Virus record (IMG/VR): IMGVR_UViG_3300045051_000365
Location: 1 to 64,000 of that record
Reading direction: 5' to 3' (one strand)
DNA from: a virus
DNA length: 64,000 bases
This document shows positions 32-59,700 of the stretch, piece by piece. The notes beneath the pieces were generated by a model. The model worked only from the letters and a program-made list of their open reading frames with translations, did no database searches and was not told where the DNA came from. Position numbers and translations under genes: made by a program. Each line of letters opens with the position of its first letter. Within the stretch, counting starts at the first letter, position 1.

Positions 32-200
32 TTGACATCCTCACCGCGCTGAAGCGACGGTGATTCCCGGCAGATCGAACAAGCTTAATTGGACGATCTT
101 CGGATGGGTTGACGCTTCACGGGATGCCGCTCCCTTAGCGGAAGTCTTACGCTTTCCTCCACGTCCGTTTTGAGTCTCCGAATGTCCTCCGGCGACCTTG
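12..200 (-). ncRNA. Putative omega RNA (TnpB guide RNA) with guide in flanking DNA
   Basis: In this family the guide RNA overlaps the 3' end of tnpB and the right end of the element and runs into flanking DNA, which acts as guide. Here the scaffold would end at TCAA (35 to 32, minus strand) just after the 41-63 hairpin. The guide would be the next roughly 20 bases of the XRE gene, positions 31 to 12. The 5' limit given is a guess; only the 3' structure and junction are visible. Confidence 0.4.
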
Positions 201-1498
201 ATGTTTACCGCGGCCGTGATGTCTCTATCGTGGAACGCGCCACAGAAGAGACATTCCCACTCGCGGATATTCAACGCCTTTCTCCCGCCGATATTCCCGC
301 AACAGGAACATCGCTGGCTAGTCGGTTCCCATCGGGAAATGACCCGAAAATCCCGTCCGTATTTCTCCGATTTTGCCGCTAACATATCTCGGAAAGAACG
401 CCATCCGAGATCCGATATAGCGCGGGATAGTTTTCGGTTTTTCATCATCCCCGACGTGTTGAGATCTTCCAGAATTATCGTTTGGTTTTCACGGACAACT
501 CTAGTAGATATTTTGTGGAGAAAGTCGGTACGGGTATCTTTGATCCGAGCGTGGATCTTCGCTACCCGTTTTCTCGCCCTCTCCCGTCGCTTACTTCCCT
601 TCTGTTTTCGGGATAGGTTTCGCTGTGCCTTCCGTAGCCGCTTCAGTCGCTTCTTTAACGGTTTCGGCGCGTCGATCTTCTCTCCCGTACTCAGGGTAGC
701 GAACGTGGCGATCCCGAGATCGATTCCTACCGAACTTCCGTTATCGGGGAGTTTTTCGGGAACGATCTCAACAACGAAGCTTAGGAAATAGCGATCCGCC
801 GCGTCTTTAATCGCGGTGACGCTAGAGGGAATCGAGGGGAGTTCTCGACTCCAGACAATATCTAGTTCACCGATTTTCGAGAGGGTGACGGTATCTCGAT
901 TAACTTTGAATCCCCCTCTCGTGAACCGCGCCGATTGTGCCGATCTCCGCTTTTTAAAACGTGGCGGTCTAACCTTTCTCCCTTTTCGCTCCCCCTTGCA
1001 CGACTTGAAAAAGTTCGAGTAGGACTGTTCGAGATCGTTTAACGATTGCTGTAGCGGGATAGCCGATACCTCGCTTAACCATTCCCGCTTTTCGGTCTTT
1101 TTCGCCGCGGTGATAAATTGTTTTTGAAGTTCAGATCCTTTCGGTTTCTTCTCTCCTTTTCGATAGATCTCCTCGCAATACGCTAACGCGTCGTTCCACA
1201 CGACCCTGACGCACCCGAACAATTTACCGAGGGCTTGTTTCTGTGAGTCGGTGGGATAGATTCGGTAGCGATAGCGTGCTTTCATGCTAGTATTATATCG
1301 CAAAACTAGCCAACGGGTAGACATGGAAAGGCAAAGGTTTAGTATCCGAATAGAGTCCGAGCGACTAGAGAAACTACGGAGAGTGGCGCGACAGAGAAAA
1401 AAGACCATGACTCAATTAGTTGAGGACTGGATCGATAGACTGGAAGAAAAGCCGTCCTCCGCTTCGCTAAAGGACGGGGCTTTAGACCCAGATCTCCG
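32..1498 (-). mobile_element. IS200/IS605-superfamily TnpB element (IS1341-like, no tnpA)
   Basis: Element of 1467 bp, read on the minus strand. The left end follows a TTAC tetranucleotide (plus-strand GTAA at 1499-1502). The right end closes with TCAA (plus TTGA at 32-35). TTAC and TCAA are the cleavage tetranucleotides known for IS608. Subterminal hairpins are visible at both ends: 1452-1458 pairs with 1471-1477, and 41-63 folds with a TCACCG/CGGTGA outer stem. It carries tnpB and a divergent ribbon-helix-helix gene but no Y1 transposase, so movement would need TnpA in trans. Removing 32-1498 rejoins the interrupted XRE gene in frame, which supports these exact ends. Confidence 0.8.
41..1285 (-). 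CDS. tnpB: TnpB RNA-guided endonuclease
   Basis: A 414-residue TnpB. TnpB proteins are RNA-guided nucleases that cut DNA next to a target-adjacent motif and help their transposon persist. The RuvC-like residues are all present: D189 in GIDLG, E273 in LEDLN and D355 in HDRDITAAVNI. A zinc finger is formed by C326/C329 and C345/C348. The N-terminal domain (residues 1-180) is full length. The start at 1285 is chosen because the protein begins MKARYRYRIYP as in the family; upstream in-frame sequence belongs to the divergent gene. The stop codon lies inside the right-end hairpin, as is usual where the guide RNA overlaps the 3' end of tnpB. It looks intact and probably active. Confidence 0.9.
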   Translation of the reverse strand: MKARYRYRIYPTDSQKQALGKLFGCVRVVWNDALAYCEEIYRKGEKKPKGSELQKQFITAAKKTEKREWLSEVSAIPLQQSLNDLEQSYSNFFKSCKGERKGRKVRPPRFKKRRSAQSARFTRGGFKVNRDTVTLSKIGELDIVWSRELPSIPSSVTAIKDAADRYFLSFVVEIVPEKLPDNGSSVGIDLGIATFATLSTGEKIDAPKPLKKRLKRLRKAQRNLSRKQKGSKRRERARKRVAKIHARIKDTRTDFLHKISTRVVRENQTIILEDLNTSGMMKNRKLSRAISDLGWRSFRDMLAAKSEKYGRDFRVISRWEPTSQRCSCCGNIGGRKALNIREWECLFCGAFHDRDITAAVNIKVAGGHSETQNGRGGKRKTSAKGAASREASTHPKIVQLSLFDLPGITVASAR

Positions 1499-6591: not shown

Positions 6592-6598
6592 AAATTTA

Positions 6599-6628: not shown

Positions 6629-6656
6629 TTAATTAGTTTAGAAGTCAAAAGGAAAG

Positions 6657-7242: not shown

Positions 7243-7251
7243 GAGAGAGAG

Positions 7252-19506: not shown

Positions 19507-19532
19507 AGTTTCTCTCGCTGAATGTTTCAAGG

Positions 19533-19560
19533 AAGACCGCTACTAGAGCGGTCTTTTTCT
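19533..19560 (+). terminator. Rho-independent terminator
   Basis: AAGACCGCT / AGCGGTCTT stem of nine base pairs with a five-base loop and a run of T. It separates the small-gene operon from the portal operon. Confidence 0.85.
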
Positions 19561-19590
19561 CTTAGAATACAGAGTAGAACTATTATTCCC

Positions 19591-20895
19591 ATGTCTAAAG
19601 CAAAAGATAAAAAAGGCAAAAAAAAAGATGGATCGCTGAGAGGATCACAGCGATCGCTGGCCACGTCGGGAATTTTGTCGATGTCGCGCCGGTACGATCT
19701 GGAGATCGAGGAGAACCCGATCCGCGATCCCCGTATCTCCCGAGAGTTAATCGAGCTTAACCAGTGGTGTTACGAGGTTTTCCACTCCCTAGAGATGGCG
19801 GCCGACGATACTTTCGCTAGTTCCGACGGGGACGATCGGGGATGGACGATCGCCGATACCCTAGACGACGAGGAAACGCCCGTTAATCCCGAGGTTCTCG
19901 CCATAGGCGAGGACGCGCGACAGCGAAAACAATCTCTCGACTCCTACGTTATCGGCGGCGACAAGCTTAAAAAAGCGTTGCGGTGGTCGCTCGGGAAAGG
20001 GGATTGTTTTATCGAGCTAGGGATCGAGCGCGAGGGACTATCCCCGAACAAGAGCAAGGATTTCGGCGTGAGTAGGAGTCTCTACCTCCCCACGTTCGAG
20101 ATGTTCCGGAAAGAATCCGATCAGGGGGAATTGCTCGGATTCGAGCAGAGAAAATATCTATCGCACTCCGATCCCGATTATTTTTTCGAGCCAGAAAAAA
20201 TCATCCATCTCCGGCACTCTCCCGAATTTCTCTACGGGCGATCGCTCTGGCTTCCCTCCCTCGACGCGTGGGCGGACGTGAAGCGCGCGGCTGACAACCT
20301 ACAGAGAAAAGCCGACGATATAGCGAGCGATCCGACGATCTACACGTTTCCGGGGATCTCGGAAGAGGAAAAGCGAAAATTCGAGCAAGAACTACAATTA
20401 CGCCGACAGTCGGGAACCATTACCGATTTCGTGCTAAAAAGCGACAAGTACCTGATTAACAAAATGGCGAATTTCCGGGACGATCTATCGCCCCTGATCG
20501 AGTATCTTCTACAATGCCGCTACAAGCTGATTATTCCCGGATTCCCCTCGTATTTTTTCCCCGGACTCGAATCGAAAGGCGGGACGAAAGAGCTATCGAG
20601 ATCGCCCGATCGCCGTTATTCCCGGATGCGTTACGGGTGGTGTCAATTGCTAACCGGGGCGATCAAACAGACGATCGACACGGAGATCGTTTTACGCAAG
20701 GGATACGAGTGGTATGTAGAAAACGCGCGCAATAAGTATCGGATCTTGTGGCCGGAGTGGTCGGAATCGATCGACGGGATGAGCGGGAACGAGTCCGAAA
20801 ATACGGGTAGCGAGGAAGAAAGCGGGAACGGCGCGGGAGCCGACAAAAAACCTAAAAAAGGAAGTAATGCAAAAAAAATCGGGAGATCTCGCTAG
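19591..20895 (+). CDS. Portal protein
   Basis: A 434-residue protein at the head of the morphogenesis operon. It has portal-like features: an early SRELIELNQWCYEVFHSLEMAADD segment, GDCFIELG, a run with PEKIIHLRHSPEFLYGRSLW, then LDAWADVKRAADNLQRKADDIASDP. It is followed by minor head, protease and capsid genes. It should form the dodecameric ring at the packaging vertex. The last 50 residues are Gly/Glu/Lys-rich and probably disordered. Its 3' end overlaps the EAL gene by 29 bases. Confidence 0.75.
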   Translation: MSKAKDKKGKKKDGSLRGSQRSLATSGILSMSRRYDLEIEENPIRDPRISRELIELNQWCYEVFHSLEMAADDTFASSDGDDRGWTIADTLDDEETPVNPEVLAIGEDARQRKQSLDSYVIGGDKLKKALRWSLGKGDCFIELGIEREGLSPNKSKDFGVSRSLYLPTFEMFRKESDQGELLGFEQRKYLSHSDPDYFFEPEKIIHLRHSPEFLYGRSLWLPSLDAWADVKRAADNLQRKADDIASDPTIYTFPGISEEEKRKFEQELQLRRQSGTITDFVLKSDKYLINKMANFRDDLSPLIEYLLQCRYKLIIPGFPSYFFPGLESKGGTKELSRSPDRRYSRMRYGWCQLLTGAIKQTIDTEIVLRKGYEWYVENARNKYRILWPEWSESIDGMSGNESENTGSEEESGNGAGADKKPKKGSNAKKIGRSR

Positions 20896-21589
20896 GGCGT
20901 TAGCCGCGGGAGAGATCCGCCCGCACTATCAAGCGATCGTCAACGCTGACGGAGTTCCCCGTCTTTACGAATCTCTCGCCCGATGGAAAGGATTCGAGGA
21001 AATAGGCGCGCGGATCGTGTTCGAGGCGGCCGCGGACGAGGATCTTTTATTTTCGCTTTATCTATCCCTCGCCGAATCGATCCGGGAAGATACCCGAAAC
21101 TACGGTATTTCGAGGGTTTGCGTAAACATATCGCCGCTACAATTATCCGATCGGTGTCACCTGAAAAAGCTCGCGGAAACGCTCGATCCCGAGCGGGTAA
21201 TAATCGAGGTAACGGAAAGCGATCCGCTTTCCCCGAGCGGACTAAAGGGAGTTCTTCACCTAAAAGAAATCGGGTACAAGCTCGCGATCGACGACTTTCC
21301 CTGTAATCACGCGGGACTCGATCGGCTATTCGCGATCCTCCCCGAGATCGTCAAGTTCGATCGGCGATTTTTGCTCGATTCCGAGAACCCGGCAAAATCT
21401 AGTTTTATTCGCTATTTTACAAACTTCTGCCGGGAACAGTCGATCACTACCGCGGCGGAAGGGATCGAGTCTTTAGAAAAATTTAATAGTTTAAAAGAAT
21501 TAGGGATAGACTATTTTCAAGGGTACGAGATCCATCGCCCCGAACTTCCCGAGAATCTATCTAGATACTTGTCAAAAGATTTCGGGTAA
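20867..21589 (+). CDS. EAL-domain protein, predicted cyclic-di-GMP phosphodiesterase
   Basis: A 240-residue stand-alone EAL domain. EAL enzymes hydrolyse the bacterial messenger cyclic-di-GMP to pGpG. All usual catalytic positions can be seen: E35 (ESLAR, in place of EALAR), N87 (VNISP), E114 (IIEVTES), D142 and D143 (AIDDF), K163 (IVKFD), E198 and E201 (AEGIES) and Q218 (YFQGYEIHRP). No sensor, GGDEF or membrane region is attached. It is translationally coupled to the portal gene (GGAAG before the ATG inside portal), so it would be made with the structural proteins. It could change host motility or surface state late in infection, or degrade a defence messenger. Both roles are inference. Confidence 0.88.
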   Translation: MQKKSGDLARALAAGEIRPHYQAIVNADGVPRLYESLARWKGFEEIGARIVFEAAADEDLLFSLYLSLAESIREDTRNYGISRVCVNISPLQLSDRCHLKKLAETLDPERVIIEVTESDPLSPSGLKGVLHLKEIGYKLAIDDFPCNHAGLDRLFAILPEIVKFDRRFLLDSENPAKSSFIRYFTNFCREQSITTAAEGIESLEKFNSLKELGIDYFQGYEIHRPELPENLSRYLSKDFG

Positions 21590-21625
21590 ACTAGATCCGC
21601 GATGACACATCTACCCGAGGATATA

Positions 21626-21805
21626 ATGCGGGAATTAAAGAGCGAAAACCAAGAGATCGTCAGAATTTACTCCGGGATCTTACTCTGGATCGGGATAGGA
21701 ATTCTCAATATAGGGAGAGATTTGCTCGATGGCGAAATTCAATCCGAAGGACAAGAATCTCGATCCGGTGACGCGGTTGCTGTCGAGAGCGAACGTGAAT
21801 TCTAG
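21626..21805 (+). CDS. Small membrane protein, 59 residues
   Basis: ATG at 21626 has GAGGATATA before it; an ATG at 21602 is also in frame. A single hydrophobic segment (IYSGILLWIGIGILNIG) is followed by a charged tail. No family recognised. The 3' half overlaps the next small ORF in another frame. Confidence 0.45.
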   Translation: MRELKSENQEIVRIYSGILLWIGIGILNIGRDLLDGEIQSEGQESRSGDAVAVESEREF

Positions 21806-21899
21806 CGATGTATCCGCGGCGATCGGGGACTGGAAAAAGAAACCTCCCGATCCCGATTTCGAGAATTTTTTAGAGCCAGAGATCGATGAGCGACTTTAG
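21729..21899 (+). CDS. Hypothetical protein, 56 residues
   Basis: ATG at 21729 inside the end of the membrane-protein ORF. The product (MAKFNPKDKNLDPVTRLLSRANVNSSDV ... WKKKPPDPDFENFLE) looks like a real small head-region protein, and it overlaps the next gene start by 14 bases. No family recognised. Either this or the previous ORF's tail could be a shadow in the shared stretch. Confidence 0.5.
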   Translation: MAKFNPKDKNLDPVTRLLSRANVNSSDVSAAIGDWKKKPPDPDFENFLEPEIDERL

Positions 21900-22524
21900 T
21901 TTTAATCCCCTCACGCGCCGCTATCACGACAACCGATCGAAGAAATTCCTATCGGCCGCCCGCGTTCGGGAACTCGTGTCCGAGACGATCGCCGCGAGAG
22001 AGGATCGGGCTACCCGAATAACCCGAGAGCTACTATCAGAACGGATAACGCCTCGGGAATGGGAAACGCGGATGAGCGAGGAGATTAAAACATTGACGAT
22101 CCAGCTATACCGGATCGGTCGGCCGGACATGAACGCCTCGGACTACGGCAGGATCGGCTCTATCCTCCGCTCTCAATACGCCCGCCTCCGAAAATTCAGC
22201 CGGGATATTATTCTCGGAACCCAAAGCGAAAAACAGATCTTAAACCGGGCGAAACGCTATATCGCTAAAGCGCGCGAGGCGTTCGAGGAAGGGAACCGCC
22301 GGGGATACGCCACGGTGAGCCGATGGGAAAAACGGGTACGAACGAAAATTGAATCCTGCCGGGAGTGCCGCGTTTACGAGGCTATGGGATGGCAGATCGT
22401 CGGGACGCTACCCCGTCCCACCGATCGCTGTTCCTGCCGGGATAATTGCGGTTGTTACCTCGCCTACTCCAATTCCCGCGCCCGCCCGACAACGAACCTA
22501 CTTCGGGGATCGGGATGGCTGTAA
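21886..22524 (+). CDS. Minor head (SPP1 gp7/MuF-like) protein
   Basis: A 212-residue basic helical protein ending in a Cys cluster: CRECRVYEAMGW ... PTDRCSCRDNCGCYLAYSN. A C-x-x-C...P...C-x-C-x-x-x-C-x-C arrangement at the C-terminus is typical of phage head morphogenesis proteins of the SPP1 gp7/Mu F group, which sit next to portal and help load the capsid. Gene order fits this call. Confidence 0.6.
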   Translation: MSDFSFNPLTRRYHDNRSKKFLSAARVRELVSETIAAREDRATRITRELLSERITPREWETRMSEEIKTLTIQLYRIGRPDMNASDYGRIGSILRSQYARLRKFSRDIILGTQSEKQILNRAKRYIAKAREAFEEGNRRGYATVSRWEKRVRTKIESCRECRVYEAMGWQIVGTLPRPTDRCSCRDNCGCYLAYSNSRARPTTNLLRGSGWL

Positions 22525-22683: not shown

Positions 22684-23397
22684 ATGCTTTTAACCCGAGC
22701 GGATTTCGAGAAACTACTAGAGACGCGCGAGCCTACCGCGGAAGAACTGACGGCGATTAACGCCTACGCTCCCCGCGGCGCGTCCCCGTGGGAAGCCTCG
22801 GAACTAACAAGATTCTGTCTTCTCGCCTCGAATAATCTAATCCACGGATCGCTGATGGCGTGGGACGAGACGGCACTAGCGACGATGGTAGCGAGCTATC
22901 CCGGATGCCCGCTCATGATCGATCACGCGTGGGAGAACGGATCGAAAACCTTCGGGATGGTTTACGACGCGCTCCTCTACTCGCTACCGCGGGTGAGCGA
23001 GGAGGGAATGAGCAAGATTCTTTCTAAATCCCCGAATCCCGAGGAAGACCGGGGGATTATCGAGCGAGACGGCTATCATCAGGTCTTGGTTTTCGGGTTC
23101 CTCGAATCATCCCATCCCGAAGCGTCCGATATTATCTACGGCCGACGCGCGAACGTGAGTATCGGCGGGAATTTCTACGGAAAATCTTACTGTCCTACCT
23201 GTAACACCCCCTACAGCGATAAACATTGCGATCACTATCCCCCGTATATGGCGGGATGGGTAGACGAAGAATTGCTAACCCCGTACTATCGGCGCGTCGG
23301 CAAACTGGAGTCGCTAGAGTGTTCGTTCGTATTCGCCGGTAACTGTCGTCAGGCCAGAATTGTCGATAAAAACTTGAACGCTTTTGTAATGGCGTAA
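22684..23397 (+). CDS. Putative prohead maturation protease
   Basis: A 237-residue protein just upstream of the capsid gene. The segment CPLMIDHAWENGSKTFGMVYDA resembles the region around the catalytic His of phage prohead proteases. ANVSIGGNFYG resembles the catalytic Ser strand, and LESLECSFVFAGNCRQARI resembles the closing E-x-S-L-V strand. A Cys/His cluster (CPTCNTPYSDKHCDHY) is inserted before the end. It would cleave the capsid N-terminal scaffold during maturation. Assignment rests on motif likeness and gene order. Confidence 0.55.
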   Translation: MLLTRADFEKLLETREPTAEELTAINAYAPRGASPWEASELTRFCLLASNNLIHGSLMAWDETALATMVASYPGCPLMIDHAWENGSKTFGMVYDALLYSLPRVSEEGMSKILSKSPNPEEDRGIIERDGYHQVLVFGFLESSHPEASDIIYGRRANVSIGGNFYGKSYCPTCNTPYSDKHCDHYPPYMAGWVDEELLTPYYRRVGKLESLECSFVFAGNCRQARIVDKNLNAFVMA

Positions 23398-23448: not shown

Positions 23449-25356
23449 ATGTCCCAAAAAACACTGCAAGAAATTAAACGAGTGACCCCCGTGGTCGTGA
23501 AAGATTCCGAGGGGGAAACCGTGGACGAGAAAGAATTATTCGAGATGAAGACCAAGGCCGTCGAGCGGAACGCGCTACAGTCTCCCGCCGGATTCGTTCC
23601 CGTCAAGAATGTCGAAACCGAAACCGCTCCGACTCCGCTCGATTTAAAAGAGATCGAGTCGATCGTCGCTTCCGCGGTTAAGTCGGCCGTAGACGAGGTA
23701 AAAGCGGCGACGGACGCGGAAAAAGCCGAGCTAGAAACGCGAAATCGGCAACTAGAAAACGAGAGAGACGGGATTAACTCCTCTCTAGCGGAAACCGCGG
23801 AAGCGGTCAGGCAGACTAACGAAAAGCTAACCGCGCTCGAAACGGAACTGAACGAATCCAAGCGGATTATTAACAATTTCAACGACCTCGGGAAACTCCA
23901 CGGATCGGGTCAACCGGCAAAAGAGGCGAAAAACGACGAAGTGAAAGAACAGAACAACGCGCCGAAATTCAAGACGGTAAATTTCAACACGAATATCTCG
24001 ATCGGCTACAACGATAAGTTACCCGGCACGTTCCGAGAGATCCAGCATCACATCGATTCGCTCCCGAAAGTCCTCAAGTACACGGGTACTAAAGAGCGGG
24101 TGATCGATTTCGACAAACAAGAACTCGATCGCTACGTCAAGCAGAATTATCGCCATGTCCTAGCGGATCTCAATTCGTGGGGCAAGGGCGCGGGTTTGTT
24201 CCGGGGAACCGATATTCAGATGATCGATCCCGGCGAGAGCGTGGCTAACACGATCATCTCGGATCTTCCCGGCGGTTTTCTGCCGACGCTCTCCGCGATC
24301 ATGCGCGTCACCCATCGCCCCGGCTTCGTGTTTCACATGATGCCCTTGATGCGCTACGATTTTGCGAAATCGCGCGGGAACGTCATTCAGATCGGGCGAT
24401 TTAACTATCTTTCCGTCTCCCCGACCCTTGCTGATTACGAACTTTCAGCGGGCAGTACCTACAGCGCGATCACGACCCGTAGCGACTCGATGAACACCTC
24501 GAAAGTCGATGTTCAGATCCGCGAGTACGGACGGGGGAAAGAGGACGCGCAGACACAGATCAACCCGATCCGGATCGTTAGCTTTGTCGAGTATTTTTCG
24601 GCTTACGAACTGGCCGCGGAACTCAATCAAAAATTCGGCTACGATTACGCCCAATTCGAGGATCGCCTGATCCGTTCCCGCTACGATGTTACCTCGGTCA
24701 TCTGGTACAACCGCGGCAACACGATCACCACTTCCGCGACCGCTCTACAGAACGGCGATGGGCGGATGTCCAAACAATTCCTCCGCGAGATGCGTCATCG
24801 CGCCCATAGTAGCACGTCCCCGTGGGAGCCTTTACCCGATGGCAATTTTATCTCGGTTATGAACTCTACCGCGTGGAAGCAACTTCGCGAGGATCTTGAT
24901 GATGATTGGGAAGTCCCGACCCCTTCTAACCTTCTCGACTTCCTTAACGCGATGTTGCCCGCTTACGTCCCCGACGAGTCCGAGCCTCGGGTTAACGGGT
25001 ACATGGGCGTTATCGAAGGGGTTCACTGTTTCGAGAGCAACGCTTTCGGGGTAGGTAACGCCGGGGCTGACGGGGTAACGAATGTCACCGTTCGCGCCGG
25101 TTCTCCCGCGACCACCGCGACTTTCCGCGATTCCTATTTCTTCGGACACGGTGCTGTAGGCCGGGGTGTGGCGATGCCCGTCGAGGTTCGCACCGATAGC
25201 GTTACCAACTTCGATCGGGAATCCCGCCTAACGTGGCTCTCGTGGGAAGGGGTCGATACTCTCGATGTCGATCCGACCGGATCGGGCAACTCTAGTCAAC
25301 AGCTACGGGTCGCCAAGTTCCGGACGACCGATAACGCTCTTTCCGGGCTGAGTTAA
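23449..25356 (+). CDS. Major capsid protein with N-terminal scaffold (delta) domain
   Basis: A 635-residue protein. The first 165 residues or so are acidic and helical (KSAVDEVKAATDAEKAELETRNRQLENE...), like a fused scaffold or delta domain. The remainder fits an HK97-like capsid: PGESVANTIISDLPGGFLPTLSAIMRV, a long central region with YFSAYELAAELNQKFGYDYAQFEDRL, and a beta-rich C-terminus. The putative protease upstream would remove the scaffold. It is the longest structural gene of the head operon. ATG at 23449 lies after an AT-rich stretch with TATAAT at 23415-23420. Confidence 0.8.
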   Translation: MSQKTLQEIKRVTPVVVKDSEGETVDEKELFEMKTKAVERNALQSPAGFVPVKNVETETAPTPLDLKEIESIVASAVKSAVDEVKAATDAEKAELETRNRQLENERDGINSSLAETAEAVRQTNEKLTALETELNESKRIINNFNDLGKLHGSGQPAKEAKNDEVKEQNNAPKFKTVNFNTNISIGYNDKLPGTFREIQHHIDSLPKVLKYTGTKERVIDFDKQELDRYVKQNYRHVLADLNSWGKGAGLFRGTDIQMIDPGESVANTIISDLPGGFLPTLSAIMRVTHRPGFVFHMMPLMRYDFAKSRGNVIQIGRFNYLSVSPTLADYELSAGSTYSAITTRSDSMNTSKVDVQIREYGRGKEDAQTQINPIRIVSFVEYFSAYELAAELNQKFGYDYAQFEDRLIRSRYDVTSVIWYNRGNTITTSATALQNGDGRMSKQFLREMRHRAHSSTSPWEPLPDGNFISVMNSTAWKQLREDLDDDWEVPTPSNLLDFLNAMLPAYVPDESEPRVNGYMGVIEGVHCFESNAFGVGNAGADGVTNVTVRAGSPATTATFRDSYFFGHGAVGRGVAMPVEVRTDSVTNFDRESRLTWLSWEGVDTLDVDPTGSGNSSQQLRVAKFRTTDNALSGLS

Positions 25357-28184: not shown

Positions 28185-29000
28185 ATGACAGCAACAATTC
28201 TTGACATTAAATTAACGCCTTTTCTAAAGTACACGGGCGGGAAAACCCGACTTCTCCCCGAACTGCTTCCCCGCGTTCCGGGGGGATTTACCCGCTTAAT
28301 TAGTCCTTTCTTCGGGGGCGGCGCGCTAGAGTTAGCTATCGCCCCGAAAAAAGCGATACTCGCCGACGCTAATCCCGAATTAATCAACGCCTTGCAAGTG
28401 ATTCGGGATTTCCCCTACACGCTGATCGAGTATCTATCCCATCACGCGTACAGCCCCGAATACTATCTAGATCTACGGGGCAAAAGAACGACCGATCCTG
28501 TTAAAAGAGCGTCCCGCTATATCTACCTAAGTAAGTGCGGATTTAACGGGGTACAGAGAACGAATAAAAAGGGAGAGAATAACGTCCCGTTCGGAAAACA
28601 CAAGAGTCGTCCCGATTGGGTTCAAAGAGACAAGATTCTCGCTATTTCTAGATACTTGAACAAAAACGAGATCGAGATCGCTAATTCCGATTTCGAGGCG
28701 ATTATCGATTGTTCTACGGAAGGGGATTTTCTCTATCTCGATCCCCCGTACCACGGAACCCATACCGCTTACGTCGCCGCGGGGTTCACAGAAAAAGATC
28801 AGATCCGACTTAAAGAAACGGTGAATCGGGCTAATAACCGCGGGTCTAAGTTCCTGCTATCGAGTTCCGATACGGATTTTATTCGCTCGCTCTGGCAGGA
28901 CTACAAAATCGAGGAGGTGACAGTAAGGCGATCGGTTTCCCGCGACGCGTCCACGCGGGGAGAGGTGACGGAATTGTTAATTAGTAATTATAGGATCTAG
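28185..29000 (+). CDS. dam: Dam-type N6-adenine DNA methyltransferase
   Basis: A 271-residue enzyme. Motif X is LKYTGGKTRLLPELL, motif I is SPFFGGGALELAI, and the catalytic motif IV is LDPPYHGT. The order X-I-...-IV marks the alpha group, as in Dam. SKCGFNGVQRTNKKGENNVPFG between them is the expected recognition segment. Target is presumably GATC, which is extremely frequent here. No restriction partner is adjacent. The product should shield phage DNA from host GATC-cutting enzymes or control its own transcription. Confidence 0.88.
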   Translation: MTATILDIKLTPFLKYTGGKTRLLPELLPRVPGGFTRLISPFFGGGALELAIAPKKAILADANPELINALQVIRDFPYTLIEYLSHHAYSPEYYLDLRGKRTTDPVKRASRYIYLSKCGFNGVQRTNKKGENNVPFGKHKSRPDWVQRDKILAISRYLNKNEIEIANSDFEAIIDCSTEGDFLYLDPPYHGTHTAYVAAGFTEKDQIRLKETVNRANNRGSKFLLSSSDTDFIRSLWQDYKIEEVTVRRSVSRDASTRGEVTELLISNYRI

Positions 29001-34962: not shown

Positions 34963-36546
34963 CTATCTCCCGTATCCCCTCGGCAATCCGCCCCTAAACT
35001 CGTTCACGGGGGTAGAGGATACAATCGGGGTCGCGGACTCCTCAGATCCCCCGAAAAATTCATTTTCAAGCGAGTAGAACGCGCCGGATAGAGAATCGAC
35101 AATATCGTTTACCGGCGGCGGTTTCTTGTTCCCGTCAAAACTCTGACACGCGTTCAAGAAACGGGTATTCCAGACAGCATCGCGGAGTAGATAGATCTGC
35201 CCTCTACTGGCCGCCGTGGCCGCGGGTATCGATCGGGTGAGTTTATCCCCTTGCGGTTTGATCGCCGCTACATCGTGATTCGGGTGATACTCGCGTATTA
35301 CATTGGTGATCGTGTTTTCCACGAATTTGCCGCTCGATCCGCCCTCCTCTTCCCACCGAACCGCGACGCTCTTGCCGTCTATCCCCGCGGTATTTTTCAA
35401 CATCAATTCAACCTCGCCGACTTTCTTCTGCTCGCATAGGTTATCGGCGACCACGTACACGAATTCCCGTACCTCTTTCCCGTCCGATAGTACGGACTTG
35501 ATACGCTCGTATTTATAGACGAGGGTTCCGGACGTGTAGCAGTGATAATCCTCCGCGTTCTCTTTCGCCGTGGCCGCCAGATCCCAAAAGCGAACTTTCC
35601 CGAGTAATTTCCAGTCCGCGGGGATATTATCGATAACGTGAAACCACGTCCGATCGAAGACGGAACCGTTTTCATACTTAATCTTCCAGTTGCCGTATAA
35701 AAGGCGTTCTCTCTCTACCGGGTGCAACGCTTCAAGGTTCGCGATATATTCGGGGTTAGTCTTTAGAAAAATCGGATTATCGTAGATCGTCGCGTTGATA
35801 AAGGTAAAGCTTTTCGGGCTAGACTTCGGGAATCGCGCGATCAGTTCGTCCTCGGTATCGCCCCAGACTAAAGACCCCCCCGATCGCACGAAGTAACGGA
35901 TTACCCCGCAACGATCCTCGATCGGGTATCCCGTTCTAGGGTCGATCCACCAATCGATCATTCCCGCGACCCACGAATCAGCGTCCGGGTTCATTGTTGC
36001 CCTAACTTTCGGCTTAATTCCTGACATCGATCGGTTACGGGATAGCAAATACCAGAACGCCTCGCCGTCATCGTCCCAATGAGTTAACTCATCCCAACAG
36101 ATTAAATTTACCTGCGCTCCCTGCCAAGCGAAAATATCTTTCCGATGCTGTAGATACCGGAAAGATATTTTCGCTCCCGATGGAAATTTCCAGTCGAACG
36201 GCTTTGTAATTAATTTTCCTCCTAGATCTCGGTAGATTAATTGTGATTCATCTGCTAGACCACCGGGGTTTGTTATCTGACTATAGGATATTCGGAAGAT
36301 CACCGCGTTAAAAAGCGGGTTATAGATAAACTCTTTTCGAGCGCAATAGGCGAGAAGATTTCTTGATTTTCCGGAGCCGGCCGCACCGCCGAAAAATACT
36401 ATATCCGCATCGGAATTAAAGAATATAGTTTGTTTTCCGGGTTGTGGCTCGGGATACCTGTAATCCGTCCTAGTCGAAAAGCGAGAGCTGTTTTCCTGTA
36501 CGCGATATAGGTTTTTGGGGCTGATTTTTTGTCTGTTTTTTAGCAT
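34963..36546 (-). CDS. terL: Terminase large subunit
   Basis: A 527-residue DNA packaging motor. Walker A is FFGGAAGSGKS (about 51-61), Walker B is LICWDELTHW (148-157, D152/E153), the coupling-like RATMNP follows, and the nuclease domain starts at KVRFWDLAATAKENAEDYHCY with its second acidic site near DIVDSLSGAFYSL. The match is to Terminase_6-type proteins. The gene is opposite to portal, unusual for packaging genes. Its start lies 77 bases inside the upstream GIY-YIG gene and has no clear ribosome binding site, so the exact N-terminus is uncertain. Confidence 0.88.
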   Translation of the reverse strand: MLKNRQKISPKNLYRVQENSSRFSTRTDYRYPEPQPGKQTIFFNSDADIVFFGGAAGSGKSRNLLAYCARKEFIYNPLFNAVIFRISYSQITNPGGLADESQLIYRDLGGKLITKPFDWKFPSGAKISFRYLQHRKDIFAWQGAQVNLICWDELTHWDDDGEAFWYLLSRNRSMSGIKPKVRATMNPDADSWVAGMIDWWIDPRTGYPIEDRCGVIRYFVRSGGSLVWGDTEDELIARFPKSSPKSFTFINATIYDNPIFLKTNPEYIANLEALHPVERERLLYGNWKIKYENGSVFDRTWFHVIDNIPADWKLLGKVRFWDLAATAKENAEDYHCYTSGTLVYKYERIKSVLSDGKEVREFVYVVADNLCEQKKVGEVELMLKNTAGIDGKSVAVRWEEEGGSSGKFVENTITNVIREYHPNHDVAAIKPQGDKLTRSIPAATAASRGQIYLLRDAVWNTRFLNACQSFDGNKKPPPVNDIVDSLSGAFYSLENEFFGGSEESATPIVSSTPVNEFRGGLPRGYGR

Positions 36547-39884: not shown

Positions 39885-39889
39885 GGACT

Positions 39890-50271: not shown

Positions 50272-50717
50272 ACGACGCGATAGAGGCGAGGTTAGAGGCG
50301 ATAAGCAACCCGATCGAATGGGAGAAGATCTATTTCCAGTGGTTCGCTTGGGGACTGCCGGCCGAAGAATGGCACGAGTGGCCGGACTGGATGATCCTCA
50401 AAAAATGGTCGGGAGTGCAACGGGTCAAGGCGGAAGAAATAAACTCGCTATCGGGAACCGCAAGCCAGATCGCCGCGATGGTTCACGCGTACATGAAAGC
50501 GCAAGCCAAAGATAGCGGGAAAGTGGACGATCTCTCGCCCGGCGATTTTCTCCCCTACCGACTAGAGAAAGAGAAAGAATATTTCTTCGATCCCGAAACC
50601 GCCGAAGTATTGGTAGAGGCGTTAAAAGCCGGGGAGGTTCCCGTCTACGCCCTACAGATAATCGTGGATTGCGGACTTTACGACGAACTTATACTGCTAG
50701 GGGATAAAACAAAATGA
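50265..50717 (+). CDS. Tail assembly chaperone extension (T-type), made by -1 frameshift
   Basis: The -1 frame continues from the A run as ...KK-RIDDAIEARLEAISNPIEWEKIYFQWFAWGLP and stays open for about 150 residues. There is no good separate start. Slippage on A-AAA-AAA (50259-50265) gives a fusion of about 405 residues. The short leap and location upstream of the tape measure fit the lambda GT model. The tape measure ATG overlaps the end by four bases. Confidence 0.7.
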   Translation, partial: RIDDAIEARLEAISNPIEWEKIYFQWFAWGLPAEEWHEWPDWMILKKWSGVQRVKAEEINSLSGTASQIAAMVHAYMKAQAKDSGKVDDLSPGDFLPYRLEKEKEYFFDPETAEVLVEALKAGEVPVYALQIIVDCGLYDELILLGDKTK

Positions 50718-53700
50718 CGCTCTCGCTCGGTACGCTTGAAATCGGATTAGGGCTAAATACCGCCGATTACGATCGGAAGATCGCGAGAGCGGAGAATCGG
50801 ATCTCCTCGTTGAAACGTCAGGTCGAGCGCGTCGGCATGACCGCGAGAATCAAAGTAGAGGTTGACGATCGCCGCCTCTACGAACTGAACGATCACCTAA
50901 AACTCAAACGGGACGACCTCGATAAAACCGCCGCGCACTACCGACGTAATCCGATCCGCGTTCGAGTGGAAGACGATTCCCTAATCCGCCTCAATCGGGA
51001 GTTGCGGGAATTACAGCGCGTCAGCGTCGATATACGGGTTCCCTCTCGCCTCGTTGTCGAACATCGCTTCTCGGGGTATCAGGATCGGGTAGAAAAGGCG
51101 ATCGAGCGATTATCCGTCACCGTTCGTAACTCTAGCCCGCGTTCCCGGAATCCCCTCGAAAAACTATTTAATCTGACCGTGGGCAACGCGGTCGGGGGAT
51201 TTTTCACGGGGGCGGGAGCCTACGCGGGAGTAAAAGCCGGAAAAGGTTTTTATAAGGGATTCGATACCGACTTCGACGCGATCGGGCGGGAATTCGGCAT
51301 TTACACGAAAGACAAGGTGGATCGGGTCAAAAAAGGACTCGATACGGGATTTCGGGAGTTGCTAGGGTTCCCCGATGGATTGAAAGACGCGAAACGCCTA
51401 TTTCAAAAGAATTTTGATACTTTCCTCGATAACATCACCGATCCGGGGTTTTACCGGGATCTAGAGGATCTTTTCGTCGCGATGGCGCAAGCGAAGTTCG
51501 ATCCCTCGATCCTGAAAGCCGGGGCAAAACTAACCGAGAGCCAAGCGGCCGATAAAAAAATATTCGAGGAAGCGCGGGGAAAAGTAGTTTCTCGATTCGA
51601 GGAAACGGTTAAAGAGGATTTTGTCCGAGCGGCCGGGGCTTTCATGAAGCTATCGGCTCAACCCCTGCGAGTTCGTAAGCGGGTACAACTCCGGGACTCT
51701 TCCGAGATGGCCCGGCAACAGTCGGGAATTTTCGGGCGGGAATACGACGCGGTTCGGGACAAGATCGACGCGTCCGATAATATCGTTCTCATGACGGGCG
51801 GCGTTGACCCGACAAAATCGAAGCGGGGCAAGCCCAATGTAGATACGACCTATCAGATCGCCGCGGGAATTCAAGCTCTTTTCCCGAAAGCGTTCGTAGA
51901 TACCATTACGCCCTATCACACGACATCGATCGAGGATCTAGAACAGGGCGCGTATAACCGGATCTTGCGGGGATCGATCCTGCCGTTTATCAAAGAACAG
52001 AAAGACGCGCTCGCTAACCTTTTTGGCGAGAAGATGGTTAACGACATCATCGCCAACCTCGAACAGTTTCACCCGGTAGAGTCGATCCTCCGGCAGTCTG
52101 TCGAGAAGGGCTATAACGACGACTCGATCCGGATGGCCACGAAAGCACTATCCGCGTCGATGATGTTCCCCGATAAAAAGATCACCCTCGCCGGGGCATC
52201 GGGGGGCGGCTTCGTCGTGGAAGAGGCGATCGCTATCCTCAATCAGATAGCGAAACGGTTTCCCGAATTACGAAAAGCGATCTCGAATATCAAGGGATTC
52301 GCTATCGGTACTCCGATGGCCGGCATGACGGCGACAAGTGGCGGGATAAAGGGAGAGTACGCCAAATTCCAAGCCTATATCGGAACGCTAGACCATATCG
52401 GGAAAGGATTTTTCGGGGATACCCTGTACGCCGGGGACAGAAAAACGGCGAAACCGAACGAGATCGAGAGACTCGATAACGAGATCGCTCTCCCCGGCGG
52501 GATATTAAATCCGAAAAATAATCTGCAAACCGTGATCGGCGGATGGGGATACGATCACGAGGTCGGGAAAATGCTCGCGGATCTCGGAAAGCCCGTTTCT
52601 GAATTCCTGCTACTCCTTTCCTCGTTCCTGAATAACCGGGTAATGCGACCCGAAGAAGCCAAGCGACTAACGGGAGTATTCGAGAAAATAAAATCCCTGA
52701 AAGTCGGGCAAGATGCTAACGCCTATATCGACGATCTCGCGGCGATTATCAAAGAGATCGGAAGCGTAAACAAAAAAATAGGCGGGATTCTCGATACCAA
52801 AGAACTCGGGACGCTATTGCGAAAAACCCGACAACTAGCGCGCGCGACGGGGAGCGAGGGAGCGAAACAATTCGAGGGACAGATCGCTAGGGAGATCGAG
52901 GGGGTTCTGAGATCCGGACTCGGGATCGATAACGTGGCCGGACTCGGGGAACGCGGGGGCGGGCAAACCTCTTTAGTCGTTCGCAATATCTCGGATCTAA
53001 TCCGGGACGCGTTCAACGAATTAGCCCGAAGACAGGGCAAGCCGTCGCCGTATCCCGAATCGGACTTTCAGCCGCTCGATCCCTTTCTCGAATCGATCGC
53101 CACGATCGAGGACGCGCTACGCAAGTCGGCCGAAGAATTAAATTTGCCCGCGGGTGATTTCGGAAGCCTGATCCAACTATGGAAAGCGGGCAAGGCGACG
53201 GAACCGCCGGTAAGGGGCTATGCCGACGAATTCCGTTCCGTGTACCGGGATTTTCTCAAAGAACTCGGGAAACTCTCGAAACTAGGGAAAAACTATTTCC
53301 AGAAAAGCGAGGACGGGAGAACGAAAGTAGATTTTTACAAACTTCTTTGGGATTCCGCGAAGATCGCCGCGGCCTACGGACAGCCTCCCTACGCGGAAAT
53401 GTCCGGGAAATACCGCGAGCAAACTTTCAATACACCCGAAGAGAAACAGATGGAAAAAGCCTTACTCGCTTTTTTCAAGCTGTACGAGAAAGACGCGGAA
53501 ATATTCAAGAAGCAATATCTAGAGATCGCTCTAGAGGCGAAAAAGCTGTACGCGGCGGGAGATCCCGCGGGATTACAGAAACTAACCGAACTTCTGTCCA
53601 CCTCGAAATTCTCGCGGATCGCGGAACTCGGGAAGAATATAAAAACCGCGAAGAGCGGCAGGATCGGCAAAGAAAAAGCCCTCGGGGAAGGAACGAACTA

Positions 53701-56700
53701 CAAACGCCTCGCGGGATTCTTGGACAAGTTGCTAGAAAGTCTCGTCCGGTACGAGGTATCGAACCGACAGGATACGAGTGGGTTCGGGGAACTCGCCGCC
53801 GCGGGCTACGGTATTAACGCGATCCTCGATTTCGTGAATCTCGCGGCAGAACGGGGCAAGGAATTCGCCCGCGTCCCCGATCTCCTAAAATCGTCACAAA
53901 TACAATCGGCACTAGAAGATCCCGAGATCGCTAAAAAATTCGAGATCAAGGCCGAGAACATGAAATCGGCCTTACAAGAGGTTTACGCCAATCTAGAAAC
54001 GCCCCTAGAAAGAAAGACGGCCGAAATTGTCGAGGCTTACGTTAGCGGTATCTCGAAACTGATCGACTCGATCGACGCGGAGATCGTCGCCCGAAAAGTT
54101 TCTACCCCCGTCACCATTGACGGCAGACTCCGGGAGATGGCCGTCAATCGCCTACAGACCCCCGACCGCAATAACGAGATCGTCAACATCGCGGGGAACG
54201 AGGATACCGCGAGTCTACTGCTACAGACGGCCAAGCGCGAGATCTTTAATGCCCTCAATCTCTCGGATAAATCGCTCTGGAAGGGGGCGAACGCGACGAT
54301 CCAGATCTTCGATCGGCTCGTCATCGCCGCCCGAAAGGTAGAATCCGCTTTTCTCGGGAGAATACCGGCGGCGATGGCCGCGAAGAATATAGCGGCTCCC
54401 GTTGTCGCGCCGATGGCGTTGGGGGCGATGACCCTCGCGGGATTGCCCGATGATGTCGCTCACGGGATCTATCAATCGCTATACAACGTTTTTCACGAGC
54501 TTTACAAAACAGGAAGCGATAAATACGTCCAGGAACTAGCCGCGCATATCAAAGACGCGCTAGATATTGCGGTTCCCGCCGACGCGAACCCCGCTATCCG
54601 GGGGATTATTCAGGGCGTGAACATGGCGACCGAACAGATAGCTAACGCGGTGATCGCGCCGATACAAAGCGTTGCAAACTCGATCGTGGAAGGAGAATCC
54701 GCGGGAACCGCTTACGCTACCGCGACGACAGTAACGGGATTCGCCGTAGAAACCCTATTCGGGACGGCCAGAAAAGCGATCGCCCCGAAAGCGTTAGCCC
54801 CCGAAAAACTTGTCGAACTAGAAGCGAAAGGGATGGCACTAGGCGCGTCCCTCGCTAAACTTACCGATTCTCTCTCTAGAATCACGAATAATCTGCCCGC
54901 GCTCCCCCCCGGCGTTGACCCTTTCAAGCGGGAATATTACACCCGCGACCGACTACGGGAGATCGCTCGCAATCAGGGATTGAACGTACTGCCGGGCGGG
55001 AGTAAAAAAACGCCCTCGGTCGATGATTACTGGAAGGCGATTATCTCGAAAGTCCCGCCCGAGACGTTAATAAAACTTCTCCTCGCCACGAACGAAAAAG
55101 GACGCACGAAAGCGGGACGCGAGGCGTTAGCGGGGATGAGTTACGCGGCCTCCCCGATCGATAAAGGATTCGTGACGACGATCGGGCAGTCGGTCGCGAC
55201 CGTCCGTAAAATGGCGAAAGGCTCGCTCGCGGAAGCGGAACCCGATCCCCGCAAGCTCGCGGAATACTACCGGCAACTACAGAAAATCAAGGGCGAGATC
55301 GCTAAAGTTCGAGCGAACCCCGAACTCGACACATCGGGACTCAATCGCAACCTTAACGCCCTCGTTATTAATATCGAGAATTTACAGGGGGATATTCAAC
55401 GCTCGATCGGGAACCTAACAAAAGGAGCGAATAACGAGCTAGATTCCGCGAGACTGAACACCCGCGAGATCGGGGAGAACGCTATAGACGATCTCGATGA
55501 CGCGCTCGGGAACCGATCGCCCTCGTGGAAAGGAAAGCGATCCGGGAAAAACCTGATCAAGGGATTGGAAATAGGAACCGCGGAAGAGGCGAGAGTCTTT
55601 ATCGGTCAGATCGACGCGCTATTCCGAGATATTAATAAACGCCTTGAACTCAACCAGAAGCAGGGCGGAAAATTCCTGATCTACGCGAGACGGGAACACC
55701 TCGACTCGATTATGAACACGGGCTACCAAGCCCTACACCCGAACAGCAACAAGGATCGCTCTCTCCGAAAACGATTCGAGAACGCTATCCGTCCCGACTA
55801 CTCTCCCGAGGGGGTCAGTCCGATTTACGGGTTCTGGCATCCCGACGCGGCCGGTAAATTCATCGGAACCGGGGGAGGGATAAACCGACCGCGCGCGCTG
55901 ATGGCTTTCGGAACCCATAACTACGGCGGGAGAGAACCCGTAGCCCTAGAGGGTTTGTTCAACCCCGATCGGATGATGTTACACGCGGGCGACAGTCTCG
56001 GGATGGCAAGCGGGCTGGCAAGCTCCGCTCCGATGTCGCGCGATATGGTCGAGCGGATAACGTCCCGTTTCGGGAGACTCATCGAGGCCGACATCCCGAA
56101 AATGTTCGAGAAATTCCGAATCGCTACAGGAGACGAGGAATTTAGTTCGGACACTTACGGCATGGAAGGGATCTTGTGGGATAAATTCCTTCTCACGGCA
56201 GTAGGCGCGTTGCACACCTATGACGGACAGATCGGGGGAGTCCGTCCGTTCGAGGACGGTACAAGGGAACTGGCCAAGAAAAAAGGCATCGAGCTACAGG
56301 ATCTCGAATGGGTACAAGACCCGAACGCGAGCGATTGGGACAAGCTTCTCGGGCGTGACGGGATGTTTCAAGAGCGGACGCAACCCGGCGCGATCAAGCA
56401 ACAGATGTCGCGGTTCCAAGAACTTTATAAGCTCTGGCAAGATCCGAGCCTGCCCGCCGGTAAACGTAAGGATATTTTTATCGAGCTATCCGTCGCGCTC
56501 CTCAAGCAACAGGGAGAACTCCGAACGATCGCTACCGCTATCGGCGCGGATATGTCTACCTTGATGTTCACCGCGGGCAAGGTCGGCGCGTCCAATTTCC
56601 AAAAAGGTTTACAGATCGGGGTCGCCACGAACGAGGCGGAAAAAATCGCCTACCAGAACGCGCTCGACATCGTGGACGAGACGAACAAGGGACTCGGGAA

Positions 56701-59700
56701 CGCGTCGCCGTCCAAAAAAGCGATGAAAGCGATGCGGTTCTTCTACGAGGGACTAGCGTTAGGCGCGCGCCAGATCCGCTTCGGACTAGGACTAGAAACC
56801 CGCTTCGATAAAGAGGTGAGCGACTTTACTTTCTTTGTCGGGATGAAGTCGAAAGAAGCCCGAAAAGCGGTGCTTCAGGCTCTTAAAGAGATGGGGCTAG
56901 ACCGCGGGGAACGCTTACAGGTTATCGACGAAGTTCTCGGATCGATGGATTCGGGAACCTTTACTTCCCCCCGCGCTTTCCAAGCGATGAAGCGGGCTAC
57001 CGTTATCGCCCGCCCGAAAACAACGCGAGAAGAAATCCTCGGGGATTGGAACAAAAAACGCGACAATTTATTTAACACCCTCGATAGCATCGAGAAAGCG
57101 GGAGTTTCTAGCGGGTTCACGAGAGGGATCGTTAGCGGTATCCGCGTCGCCGTCGCGCAACTCGACGGATTTATAGGTTCGCTATCGACGGCCGGTAAAC
57201 TACTACGGACGATCGATAAGGAACTCGACGCGGCCACGGGCGGGATGTTCAATCTCAGAAAAGCCGCGCTCGCGGTAGTCGGGGGATTCGCTCTACTCAA
57301 GGGAGCGGAATTCTTATTACAGCCGCTTTATTTCGGTATTCAAAATCTTCCCTTCACCGTACAGCAAGCGGTAACGAACTCGCTTCAGTCTCTAGTCGAG
57401 CTACAGAGAATCAAGGTTAACCTCGATGTCGCCGGGGTAGACAACGCGGACGAGGCGATCGGACAGTTGCGGGATCGGGCTAACGAACTCGGTATCTCGT
57501 TCAAAGAGAGCGTGAAACAGTACGCGCAATTCCGGATCGTCACTACCGACACCCCGCTAGAGGCTCAGGGCGATTCTATCTACCGGGGATTTCAATCGGC
57601 TCTCGCGGTGCGCAATACCAACCCGCAACAACAGACCGAGACATTCCGGGCGATCAATCAGATGGCCTCCCGCTCCGTTCTGTCGGTGGAAGAATTCACC
57701 CAACAGTTAACCGAGTCCGGGGGACTTTACGACGCGCTGATCGTCGCCGCCCGAGCGATGGGACTAACCACCGCCGAATTCTACCGGCAAGCGTCCGCGG
57801 GACAATTGTTATCGCAAGACGTGATCCCCCGGTTATCGGCCGAATACGAGCGGATGAGCGCGGGGGGACTCGGGGAATCTGGGAAAACCCTACAGGCGGA
57901 AATTAACCGCTATCAGAATAATCTCGAACAGTTATCGATGGGAGTCGGGGAGAAGATCGGCGCGGTAGCCTATCCCGCTCTACAACTGCTGAACGTCGCG
58001 CTAGGGGGGGTAAACGACAACCTCGACGCCTTGTTAATTGTCGCGAGAGCCGCGCTTAACGTCACGATCGGGTTAGTCACAAAATCCGTCCTACAATTTA
58101 TTGCCGCCACGCGACTCGGACAGCTTGTCCTTTCTTCGTACAATGCCGCTCTTTTTACTACTGGAGTACGCGCCGGAGAAACCGCCACGCGGATGCAAAT
58201 GTTGTCAGCGACAGCGAAAGCGACGGGGGTAGTTTTTAATTCGGCTATTTCGGTAATGGCGATCCCTCTCGCCGTGACCGCGGGATTACAACTATTCTTC
58301 GCGATCTGGAACGCGGGGAGCGAGGATCTTCGTAACAATCTACAGACGATCAAAGAATCGAAAAAAGTATTAGAAGATCTCGGGAAAATCAAGCCCGAAT
58401 CTAACCGGCAAAATTTCCTAGAAAAAGTTTTCACGCCGGAACAAACCAAAAAAGATCTATCCGAGGGGAACTGGTGGGATAAAACGGTCGCGCTCTTTAC
58501 GTGGAGTCCGTTCCGGGAAGCGGGAAAAGTCGGATTCGATAGCTACGGAACGAGCAAGGATATTCGGAATATTAACGACACCCTAAAAGAAGGCGAAACC
58601 GTCCTAAAGGGATACAGGGATCAACTTTCCGATGTAACCGGGATCGATAAATTTATCGATTCCCTGCAAGGTCTTCGGAACAAGCTCGCTCAGGTTCGCG
58701 CGGAACGGGCGATCGCCGCGGGGAAAGGGGATTCCGCGGGAGTGGCGCGGGCGAATACCGTCGAACAAGAACTGATGAAACAGGAACAGGAAGCGATCGA
58801 TAAACGCTTCGGTTCTCTAGGGTCCCGTATTGCCGCGGATCTGCAAGCTTACGAAAGCTCGCTCGCGAAACTGGAAGAGTCTTATCAAAAAGGCAATGTT
58901 TCCGTAGACGAATACACGGACAAATCGACAAAACTTAAAGCCGTAATCGCCCAACTCAAAGCCGAACAGCAGAATTATCTCAATATACTCAAGGATCAAG
59001 AAAAGCAGTACAAAAAACTTCAGTTCGGTTTTAAAAGAACCCTTAACGCTCAAGAAAATCGAGACTTTATTAACGCTCGAAAATCCCTGAATCGGCAGAT
59101 CGGCAACGAGAAGGGATTCGCCGCGGGACAGCTTAACGAGTACGAATTTAACGTCAGGGTGCGGGAGGAATCGCTACAGACGGCAAAAGAGAAAATCGCC
59201 TCGCTACAGACAACCGCGACGGAAACGGGGGCAAAACTCAATACCCGCATCACCGAAGCGGCCGATAAAACCCTCTCCACTTATTTCGGCAAAGACCTCG
59301 AACGGCTCGGGGTTGGCAGTTTTTCCGAGGCGATCGCGAAAAACCTCCTCTCCCCGAAAATGATCGAGGATGTCATGGACGAGTTTTCGGGAGATCTCGA
59401 ATCGAACGCCGCGCTAAAAAATATCCTAGAGATGGCGAAACGGTACGTCTCTACCCGACAGGATATTCTATCCTCGGAAAAAGAGATTCAGGCGATCAAC
59501 CGGGAAATTATTACCGAGCGGAAGCGTCGCCAGATAAACGAGAAACAGGCGGGGAACGAGGTTCTTATCGCCGGGAAACAGGAAAAACTCTATTCCTCTA
59601 CCCCGACCGGAAAACTCCGCTCGTTTCAATCGTCCGAGACGCGGCTATCCCTAGAAGAACTTTACAAGCAACTGGCGATCGAGCAGGAACGGCTCGCGGC

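Follow-up and report, generated by a model that had tools for sequence, protein, structure and literature searches.

A stand-alone EAL-domain protein is encoded within the head genes of an uncultured virus, the IMG/VR record IMGVR_UViG_3300045051_000365, behind the gene for the portal protein. The whole record measures 73,200 bases and features one EAL match; the stretch analysed here, called the window throughout, is made by its first 64,000 bases. The gene would represent an accessory function parked directly behind the portal in a family of freshwater cyanophages. On balance, it probably encodes a late-made accessory hydrolase which lowers the level of cyclic di-GMP (c-di-GMP) in the host. 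Expressed late, alongside the virion proteins, the sensor-less phosphodiesterase would linearise c-di-GMP to pGpG with no regulatory input; host c-di-GMP would be pulled down late in infection, and the surface behaviour of the infected cell, in terms of type IV pili, exopolysaccharide and aggregation, would change. Established elements of this account are the fold, the residue set, the place, an overlap whose length relatives share, the action of purifying selection, the loss of the gene from a sister lineage and the occurrence of other cargo elsewhere. The gene is described as follows:

20867..21589, + strand: stand-alone EAL-domain protein, 240 amino acids (aa), assigned by Pfam, residue mapping, an AlphaFold model and matches to structures in the PDB.

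The open reading frame (ORF) is as described in the original prediction, with ATG at 20867, a stop through 21589 and 240 translated codons. The Pfam EAL profile PF00563 matches residues 7-225 (E 2.6e-37, 128.9 bits, cut-off 31.3) over profile positions 3-236 of 236, and hence the whole domain is present. Only 6 residues precede the match and 15 follow it; a second domain is absent, in line with the earlier claim that no sensor is attached. The protein is shortened by loop deletions relative to cellular EALs. The AlphaFold model, built with 47 sequences, has a pLDDT (predicted local distance difference test) of 92.4 and a pTM (predicted template modelling score) of 0.89; mean pLDDT is 84 at residues 141-150, which include most of loop 6. 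Among the matches listed, the top PDB neighbours of the model are the EAL phosphodiesterases PA3825 (in a c-di-GMP-bound structure), RocR (TMq 0.87) and PdeA, and each of the 50 listed is an EAL protein or contains an EAL domain, with 19-28% identity to the phage protein. Membership in the EAL family is virtually certain. A chance reading frame was rejected on the grounds of Pfam match, fold and selection.

Papers are cited here by PMC number, and statements on them refer to excerpts of their text. Active EALs share 13 conserved residues (PMC11537037): Q, R, D and D contact the ligand, E, N, E, D, K, E and Q bind metal, one E anchors loop 6 and another E serves the water. We mapped this list onto the 240-aa protein. 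The ligand residues (Q22, R39, D143, D165), the metal residues (E35, N87, E114, D142, K163, E198, Q218), the loop-6 anchor E117 and the water residue E201 are all kept both in the window EAL and in its homologue in a related record, L003. The full set, 13 of 13, thus survives in two phage EALs which are merely 55% identical. E35, N87, E114, D142, D143, K163, E198 and Q218, the residues named in the original prediction, are present and correspond to conserved columns in two alignments. Common fold, sequence matches and catalytic and ligand residues link the phage protein to the stand-alone or sensor-linked c-di-GMP phosphodiesterases RocR, PA3825, PdeA, YahA and BlrP1, from which it differs in having the sequence DFPCNHAG in loop 6, in being sensor-less, and in residing in a run of head genes.

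The genes around the EAL gene are listed below. The names portal and major capsid rest on the annotation of Cr-LKS4, a phage of Cylindrospermopsis.

19522..20895, + strand: portal protein, 35% identical to the Cr-LKS4 portal (E 4e-56) and 81-84% to diverged close relatives in IMG/VR.
21602..21805, + strand: ORF of 67 aa between the EAL gene and the 56-aa gene; found, among 15 loci compared, only in copies of the window virus, it may not be a gene.
21729..21899, + strand: 56-aa gene (MAKFNPKDKN...), known from its translation, the first conserved gene past the EAL site and the positional counterpart of Cr-LKS4 g08.
21886..22524, + strand: 212-aa head-region protein, phrog_24776 (no known function), E 1.3e-36, about 80% identical in relatives.
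22684..23397, + strand: probable head maturation protease, phrog_18299, a weak match (E 3.3e-4).
23449..25356, + strand: major capsid protein, 32% identical to the annotated major capsid protein of Cr-LKS4 (E 2e-72).

Small ORFs resembling the 56-aa gene were seen by eye at the corresponding site in L008 and in the group B loci. The EAL start overlaps the 3' end of the portal gene by 29 nucleotides (nt), and both the position among head genes and the overlap agree with the earlier description. The overlap is of identical length in L003 and in L008, which carries a broken copy, provided that translation there begins at the in-line GTG codons; judged from sequence, it fits a translational coupling of EAL to portal. 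Because the gene lies in the run of head genes and overlaps the portal stop, its product would be made late with the virion proteins.

A portal scan of IMG/VR identified 10 records with portals 81-100% identical to that of the window. The original prediction had suggested searching relatives for the gene at the same place: it is intact in two records, and reduced to deleted remnants in eight. One of the former, L002, is the same virus (100% identical to the window across 14,202 bases); the other, L003, carries at the matching site a diverged intact EAL (55% identity), with the 29-nt overlap alike. In L008-L015 (8 of 8) the middle of the gene is deleted, about the first 23 and the last 25 codons are left, and the frame is closed by TAG. 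The 3' remnant is 88-96% identical to the L003 EAL at the protein level. As these phages retain the ends of the gene, their ancestor carried it, and they manage without.

A wider portal search yielded 93 relatives, 80 of which were examined; along with Cr-LKS4 they make 81 slot rows, those of the ten close records being read from the loci of the earlier portal scan. The slot holds an intact EAL in 2 rows, EAL fragments in 8, methyltransferase matches in 53 and neither in 12; it is cut off in 6. Any tblastn match to four queries was scored as methyltransferase, with no length filter, and L030, in which the methyltransferase is a fragment with an internal deletion, is therefore counted; both ends of the slot are visible in 34 of the 53 rows. 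All but one of the rows with neither gene (11 of 12) correspond to Cr-LKS4 or to records with portals 33-35% identical to that of the window, and in these just 267-418 nt separate the portal match from the 212-aa match. The twelfth, the 87.6-kb relative L058, features a 569-aa vanadium-haloperoxidase-like gene (6235-7944, + strand) with matches to CARDB, to the vanadium chloroperoxidase N-terminal domain (VCPO_N) and to PAP2. In the four sister-clade loci examined, L058 included, the cargo gene and the portal gene share 8 nt, from the start of the former to the stop of the latter. The slot methyltransferases which were scanned (6 of 6) belong to Pfam N6_N4_Mtase. By eye, those of L027, L031, L036, L044, L053 and L067 have shared ends and strongly differing middles; from their sequences, the middles differ as if target-recognition parts were swapped.

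The finding of EAL, methyltransferase and haloperoxidase-like genes at one site indicates that the site behind the portal carries exchangeable cargo. When 19 relative records, some of them fragments, were searched whole with the EAL profile, the domain was found in 2, at the slot in both, and in none of the other 17. Alignment searches with the window and L003 EALs, and with the capsid, revealed no further record showing the slot. Being deleted or absent in relatives with a visible slot, the gene is accessory rather than part of head assembly, and it very probably represents moron cargo in a variable slot. A structural or head-assembly role was rejected, given the deletion in 8 of the 10 close records and the missing EAL in 17 of the 19 relatives searched whole.

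Between the window and L003, the EAL gene shows 0.34 nonsynonymous substitutions per site (dN) and about 2.6 synonymous ones (dS, NG86, saturated), with a dN/dS of about 0.13; identities at the three codon positions are 66/77/45%. As dN is far below dS, the protein is held by selection. The portal has a dN of 0.11 (dS is not computable by NG86, and measures 1.8 by YN00), about one third of the EAL value; the dN of the endolysin (0.36), the gene for which lies farther from the EAL gene in the window, is close to it. GC content and GC at third codon positions (GC3) of the EAL gene move with each genome, being 0.50/0.55 in the window and 0.37/0.30 in L003. The portals of L003 and L008 are 87-89% identical, slightly more than either is to that of the window (84-87%), which agrees with the following history: the EAL gene was present in the common ancestor, selection has retained it in two lines, and a third has lost it.

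The source of the gene was searched for in 386 genomes drawn from the cyanobacterial phylum, in each of which up to 7 EAL candidates were scored. The best-scoring cellular EAL is 33% identical to the phage protein, and recent capture from a sampled cyanobacterium was rejected on this basis. Window and L003 EALs group together in the tree (support 100/100); their branch measures 1.8 and its placement is flagged as unreliable by the program, hence no donor is named. A provirus source was likewise rejected, since the portal profile was found in 0 of the 386 genomes, in a search run without a positive control; a scan of genome contigs with the portal alignment retrieved no relative.

Host evidence is of several kinds. 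The sequence GCGATCGC, which we take to be the HIP1 repeat of cyanobacteria, occurs at 22 sites in the window against 3.4 expected, an approximately sixfold enrichment. Short DNA matches to cyanobacterial genomes, sought with 39,802 of the window's 64,000 bases, were found in 7 and 3 of 291 genomes. The loci of four of these genomes were scanned for repeats, and one (L279) lies inside a CRISPR array, near position 3441064 of G582:C1, made by 38 repeats and 37 spacers. G582 is of the same order as a record named Microcystis aeruginosa, and one Microcystis locus matches it at 89-98%. Each of the 37 spacers was set against the window, the remainder of its record and 13 loci from relatives. Perfect matches of 34-41 nt connect five spacers with EAL-deleted relatives (L008/L268, L011); a sixth is 97% identical, and one more shows 97% identity to three phages with a methyltransferase and to the phage with the haloperoxidase-like gene. 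These relatives of the window virus therefore infect Microcystis or close kin, and the array is a direct host link for this uncultured phage group. Microcystis is a plausible host group for the window virus, whose own host (phage GC is 0.50) is not fixed by the spacers. An additional feature of the window may hint at the same bacteria:

41..1408, - strand: IS605 OrfB/TnpB-type gene, which along most of its length shares 72-82% identity with copies from Microcystis.

A Chamaesiphon copy of this gene reaches 80% over residues 102-436; since TnpB is mobile, this is weak host evidence. GGDEF genes (1-2 per genome) were found in 4 of 4 Microcystis genomes, so c-di-GMP is likely made there. One whole EAL domain was identified in 4 of 5 Microcystis genomes (L284, L285, L286, L287), and all four read AKGVE for AEGVE, with K at the position of E198; the phage would therefore supply the only EAL with a full residue set there. 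A second EAL match in the Microcystis genome G001 is broken by stops.

Various observations weigh against a phage-made hydrolase acting on the host pool. In both the window and the L003 EAL, loop 6 (residues 143-150) reads DFPCNHAG, and the canonical motif DFG(T/A)GYSS is not matched, as G145 is replaced by P and G147 by N. The canonical loop is described as a mediator of dimerisation and as indispensable for EAL activity (PMC12943098), and is tied to both also in PMC2994820. GC3 of the EAL gene is below that of portal, capsid and other neighbours (0.55 vs 0.61-0.67 in the window; 0.30 vs 0.41-0.48 in L003, the 56-aa gene excepted), so its compositional shift is incomplete. Only two independent intact copies (window/L002 and L003) occur at the slot in the data searched. 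The best spacer match to the window is 93% over 29 nt, and none above 93% is longer than 20 nt. Finally, an HD-GYP gene is present in 4 of 5 Microcystis genomes, so that the phage EAL would not be the sole phosphodiesterase there.

The departure in loop 6 was missing from the original prediction. Among the cyanobacterial comparators (40 EALs and a contig labelled AS-1) G is found at position 145 in 41 of 41 and at 147 in 40 of 41, and among EALs of viral contigs at either position in 45 of 45; the comparators are a non-random sample, picked by similarity to the query, and the 45 were selected by a pattern permitting G or P at the first glycine position and G or N at the second. The AS-1 contig (L005, accession DQ115821, labelled cyanophage AS-1) is the best INPHARED match, unannotated and 1670 bases long, with an EAL frame of 383 aa; it may represent phage DNA or bacterial DNA carried over, and served solely as one of the 41 comparators. 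Conservation of the two loop-6 glycines in 8082 Pfam sequences is 88% and 79%, and structural modelling shows them bonded to the anchoring glutamate (PMC2994820). The role of loop 6 in EAL activity is described also in PMC11537037, PMC5845226 and PMC12900916; a figure legend of the last (2026) names EALs of classes IIa and IIb which are confirmed to function and whose signature residues deviate in part. The 16 residues across loop 6, AIDDFPCNHAGLDRLF, are the longest identical run between window and L003 EALs. As the loop is altered and then invariant between the two phages, I read it, from the sequences compared, as rebuilt rather than decayed. With DFPCNHAG in place of DFG(T/A)GYSS the protein is not assigned to the canonical class I enzymes, yet it may still work like one. 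The claim of a predicted active enzyme, sound as to the full catalytic set, was thus overstated as to the loop, with G145->P and G147->N in both phages. Catalytic activity is likely, not safe, from the residues retained, and activity on c-di-GMP specifically is to be regarded as probable.

A wider picture, tentative and on the doubtful side, would make the slot a late host-manipulation site with swapped cargo, where an EAL with a rebuilt loop 6 would represent a new subtype, either dimer-independent or acting on another cyclic dinucleotide, which silences a host or defence signal.

The rewritten loop might instead have stopped turnover, the protein binding c-di-GMP as a sponge, or partnering a host or phage protein in a ligand-dependent manner. 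Degenerate EALs which bind without cutting, such as LapD and FimX, are precedents. Both loop-6 glycines are gone in the two phage EALs, the L003 protein obtains weak scores with the models of LapD and CsrD, as P0001 does with that of LapD, and phages are known to make sponges for other nucleotide signals (PMC12043709). BvgR is one non-catalytic EAL in which metal-binding residues are lost (PMC11537037). In the phage proteins, by contrast, every metal-binding residue is kept across 45% divergence, which is hard to explain without catalysis. Such losses are usual in non-catalytic EALs, and we regard binding without cleavage as unlikely.

Less likely still is an EAL of altered specificity which cuts a cyclic dinucleotide alarm of host defence, as Acb1 does for CBASS. 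DNA methyltransferases, the other main content of the slot, are a class often used against restriction, and loop 6 is rewritten alike in both phages, precisely where their longest identity run falls. Phage phosphodiesterases acting on nucleotide alarms are established (PMC9117128, PMC12657218), and Acb1, a phage phosphodiesterase on cyclic nucleotides, would be alike if the window protein had this role; it degrades CBASS cyclic oligonucleotides, and the window protein is a predicted EAL barrel. Placement in the head genes suggests late expression, which is late for counter-defence. EAL enzymes, moreover, are generally specific for c-di-GMP. The SMODS cyclase domain was found in 0 of 5 Microcystis genomes, which weakens this explanation and does not exclude it, as Microcystis is not proven to be the host of the window virus and other cyclase clades were not searched. 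No PADLOC family matched (0), which says little, the library holding defence proteins.

That the gene is a near-neutral passenger, picked up by a permissive slot and now being lost, is improbable: deletion in 8 of 10 close records and the similar internal deletion in the L030 methyltransferase would suit it, but dN/dS is about 0.13 (dS saturated), the catalytic residues are all kept between two lineages, and a best-scoring cellular EAL of just 33% argues against recent capture from the sampled genomes.

A late-made c-di-GMP hydrolase has partial parallels in known systems. The pakpunavirus protein Dap1 is an inhibitor of DipA, a phosphodiesterase of the host, and would raise c-di-GMP (PMC12846349), and a Mu-like virus encodes a diguanylate cyclase, which makes c-di-GMP (PMC7785012). 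Both represent tuning of a host messenger by phages, as proposed here; the window carries instead a phosphodiesterase-type protein behind the portal. In cells infected by cyanophages, another messenger, (p)ppGpp, is reported to be interfered with (PMC4284465). The phage and cyanophage literature on EAL or c-di-GMP, covered in part through titles and abstracts, named no cyanophage with an EAL gene and no such gene behind a portal, and the papers listed for EAL on viral contigs were general virome studies; in the excerpts of a jumbo-phage survey (PMC7824862) c-di-GMP and EAL occur in its references only. Cr-LKS4, a Cylindrospermopsis/Raphidiopsis phage, has related portal, 212-aa and 237-aa genes in an order shared with the window, and, some 15 kb beyond them, a related capsid gene; it differs in the low identity (27-35%) and in lacking EAL, its slot holding the small gene g08 only.

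EALs on other viral contigs are a separate matter. Second-messenger enzymes had been called very unusual among phage structural genes; EALs as such are not rare on viral contigs, with 128 stretches matched in IMG/VR, and it is at the slot that an intact copy is confined to the window virus (with L002) and L003. Among the best 80 of the 128, and L002 and L003 apart, identity to the window EAL is 36% at most; some lie in frames of 251-280 aa, and the contigs which carry these measure 250-344 kb. The canonical DFGxG loop is present in the 45 aligned; the contigs are classed as viral, and the EALs on them may be phage genes or belong to host flanks. EAL matches in INPHARED (59 records, all below 60% identity) were not used as phage evidence, many being unannotated contigs or bacterial records. 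The C-terminal parts of phrog_11823 and phrog_22021 match the phage EAL (E 5.1e-18 and 3e-12); these profiles, of 693 and 782 positions, are multidomain and their function is not known, whereas the window EAL stands alone.

Other genes of the window include the following:

34966..36546, - strand: terminase.
50714..62623, + strand: tape-measure protein (TMP_3), 3969 aa, unusually long.

KilA-N and Bro-N domain proteins adjoin the terminase (32282-33073 and 34147-34884, - strand), and three more DNA methyltransferase genes are located at 28185-29000, 5252-6427 and 39878-40915 (+). Past the window, near the right-hand end of the virus record, reside an integrase-like gene, below the Pfam cut-off (L016:7952-9064, - strand), and a recombination-directionality-factor-like gene (L016:4025-5059, + strand); from these, the phage may be capable of integration.

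The finding ties a phage gene, at a fixed site, to the c-di-GMP network of cyanobacteria, probably of bloom-forming species. Cleavage of c-di-GMP is the likeliest function, and it is the altered loop 6 that makes activity a real question. If the EAL is active, a rewritten loop 6 is compatible with EAL catalysis, which bears on the prediction of activity from sequence. A near relative with intact EAL and sister phages with the internal deletion make natural pairs, in which the effect of a single gene can be compared. The variable slot behind the portal is, more generally, a place to seek host-manipulation genes in cyanophages.

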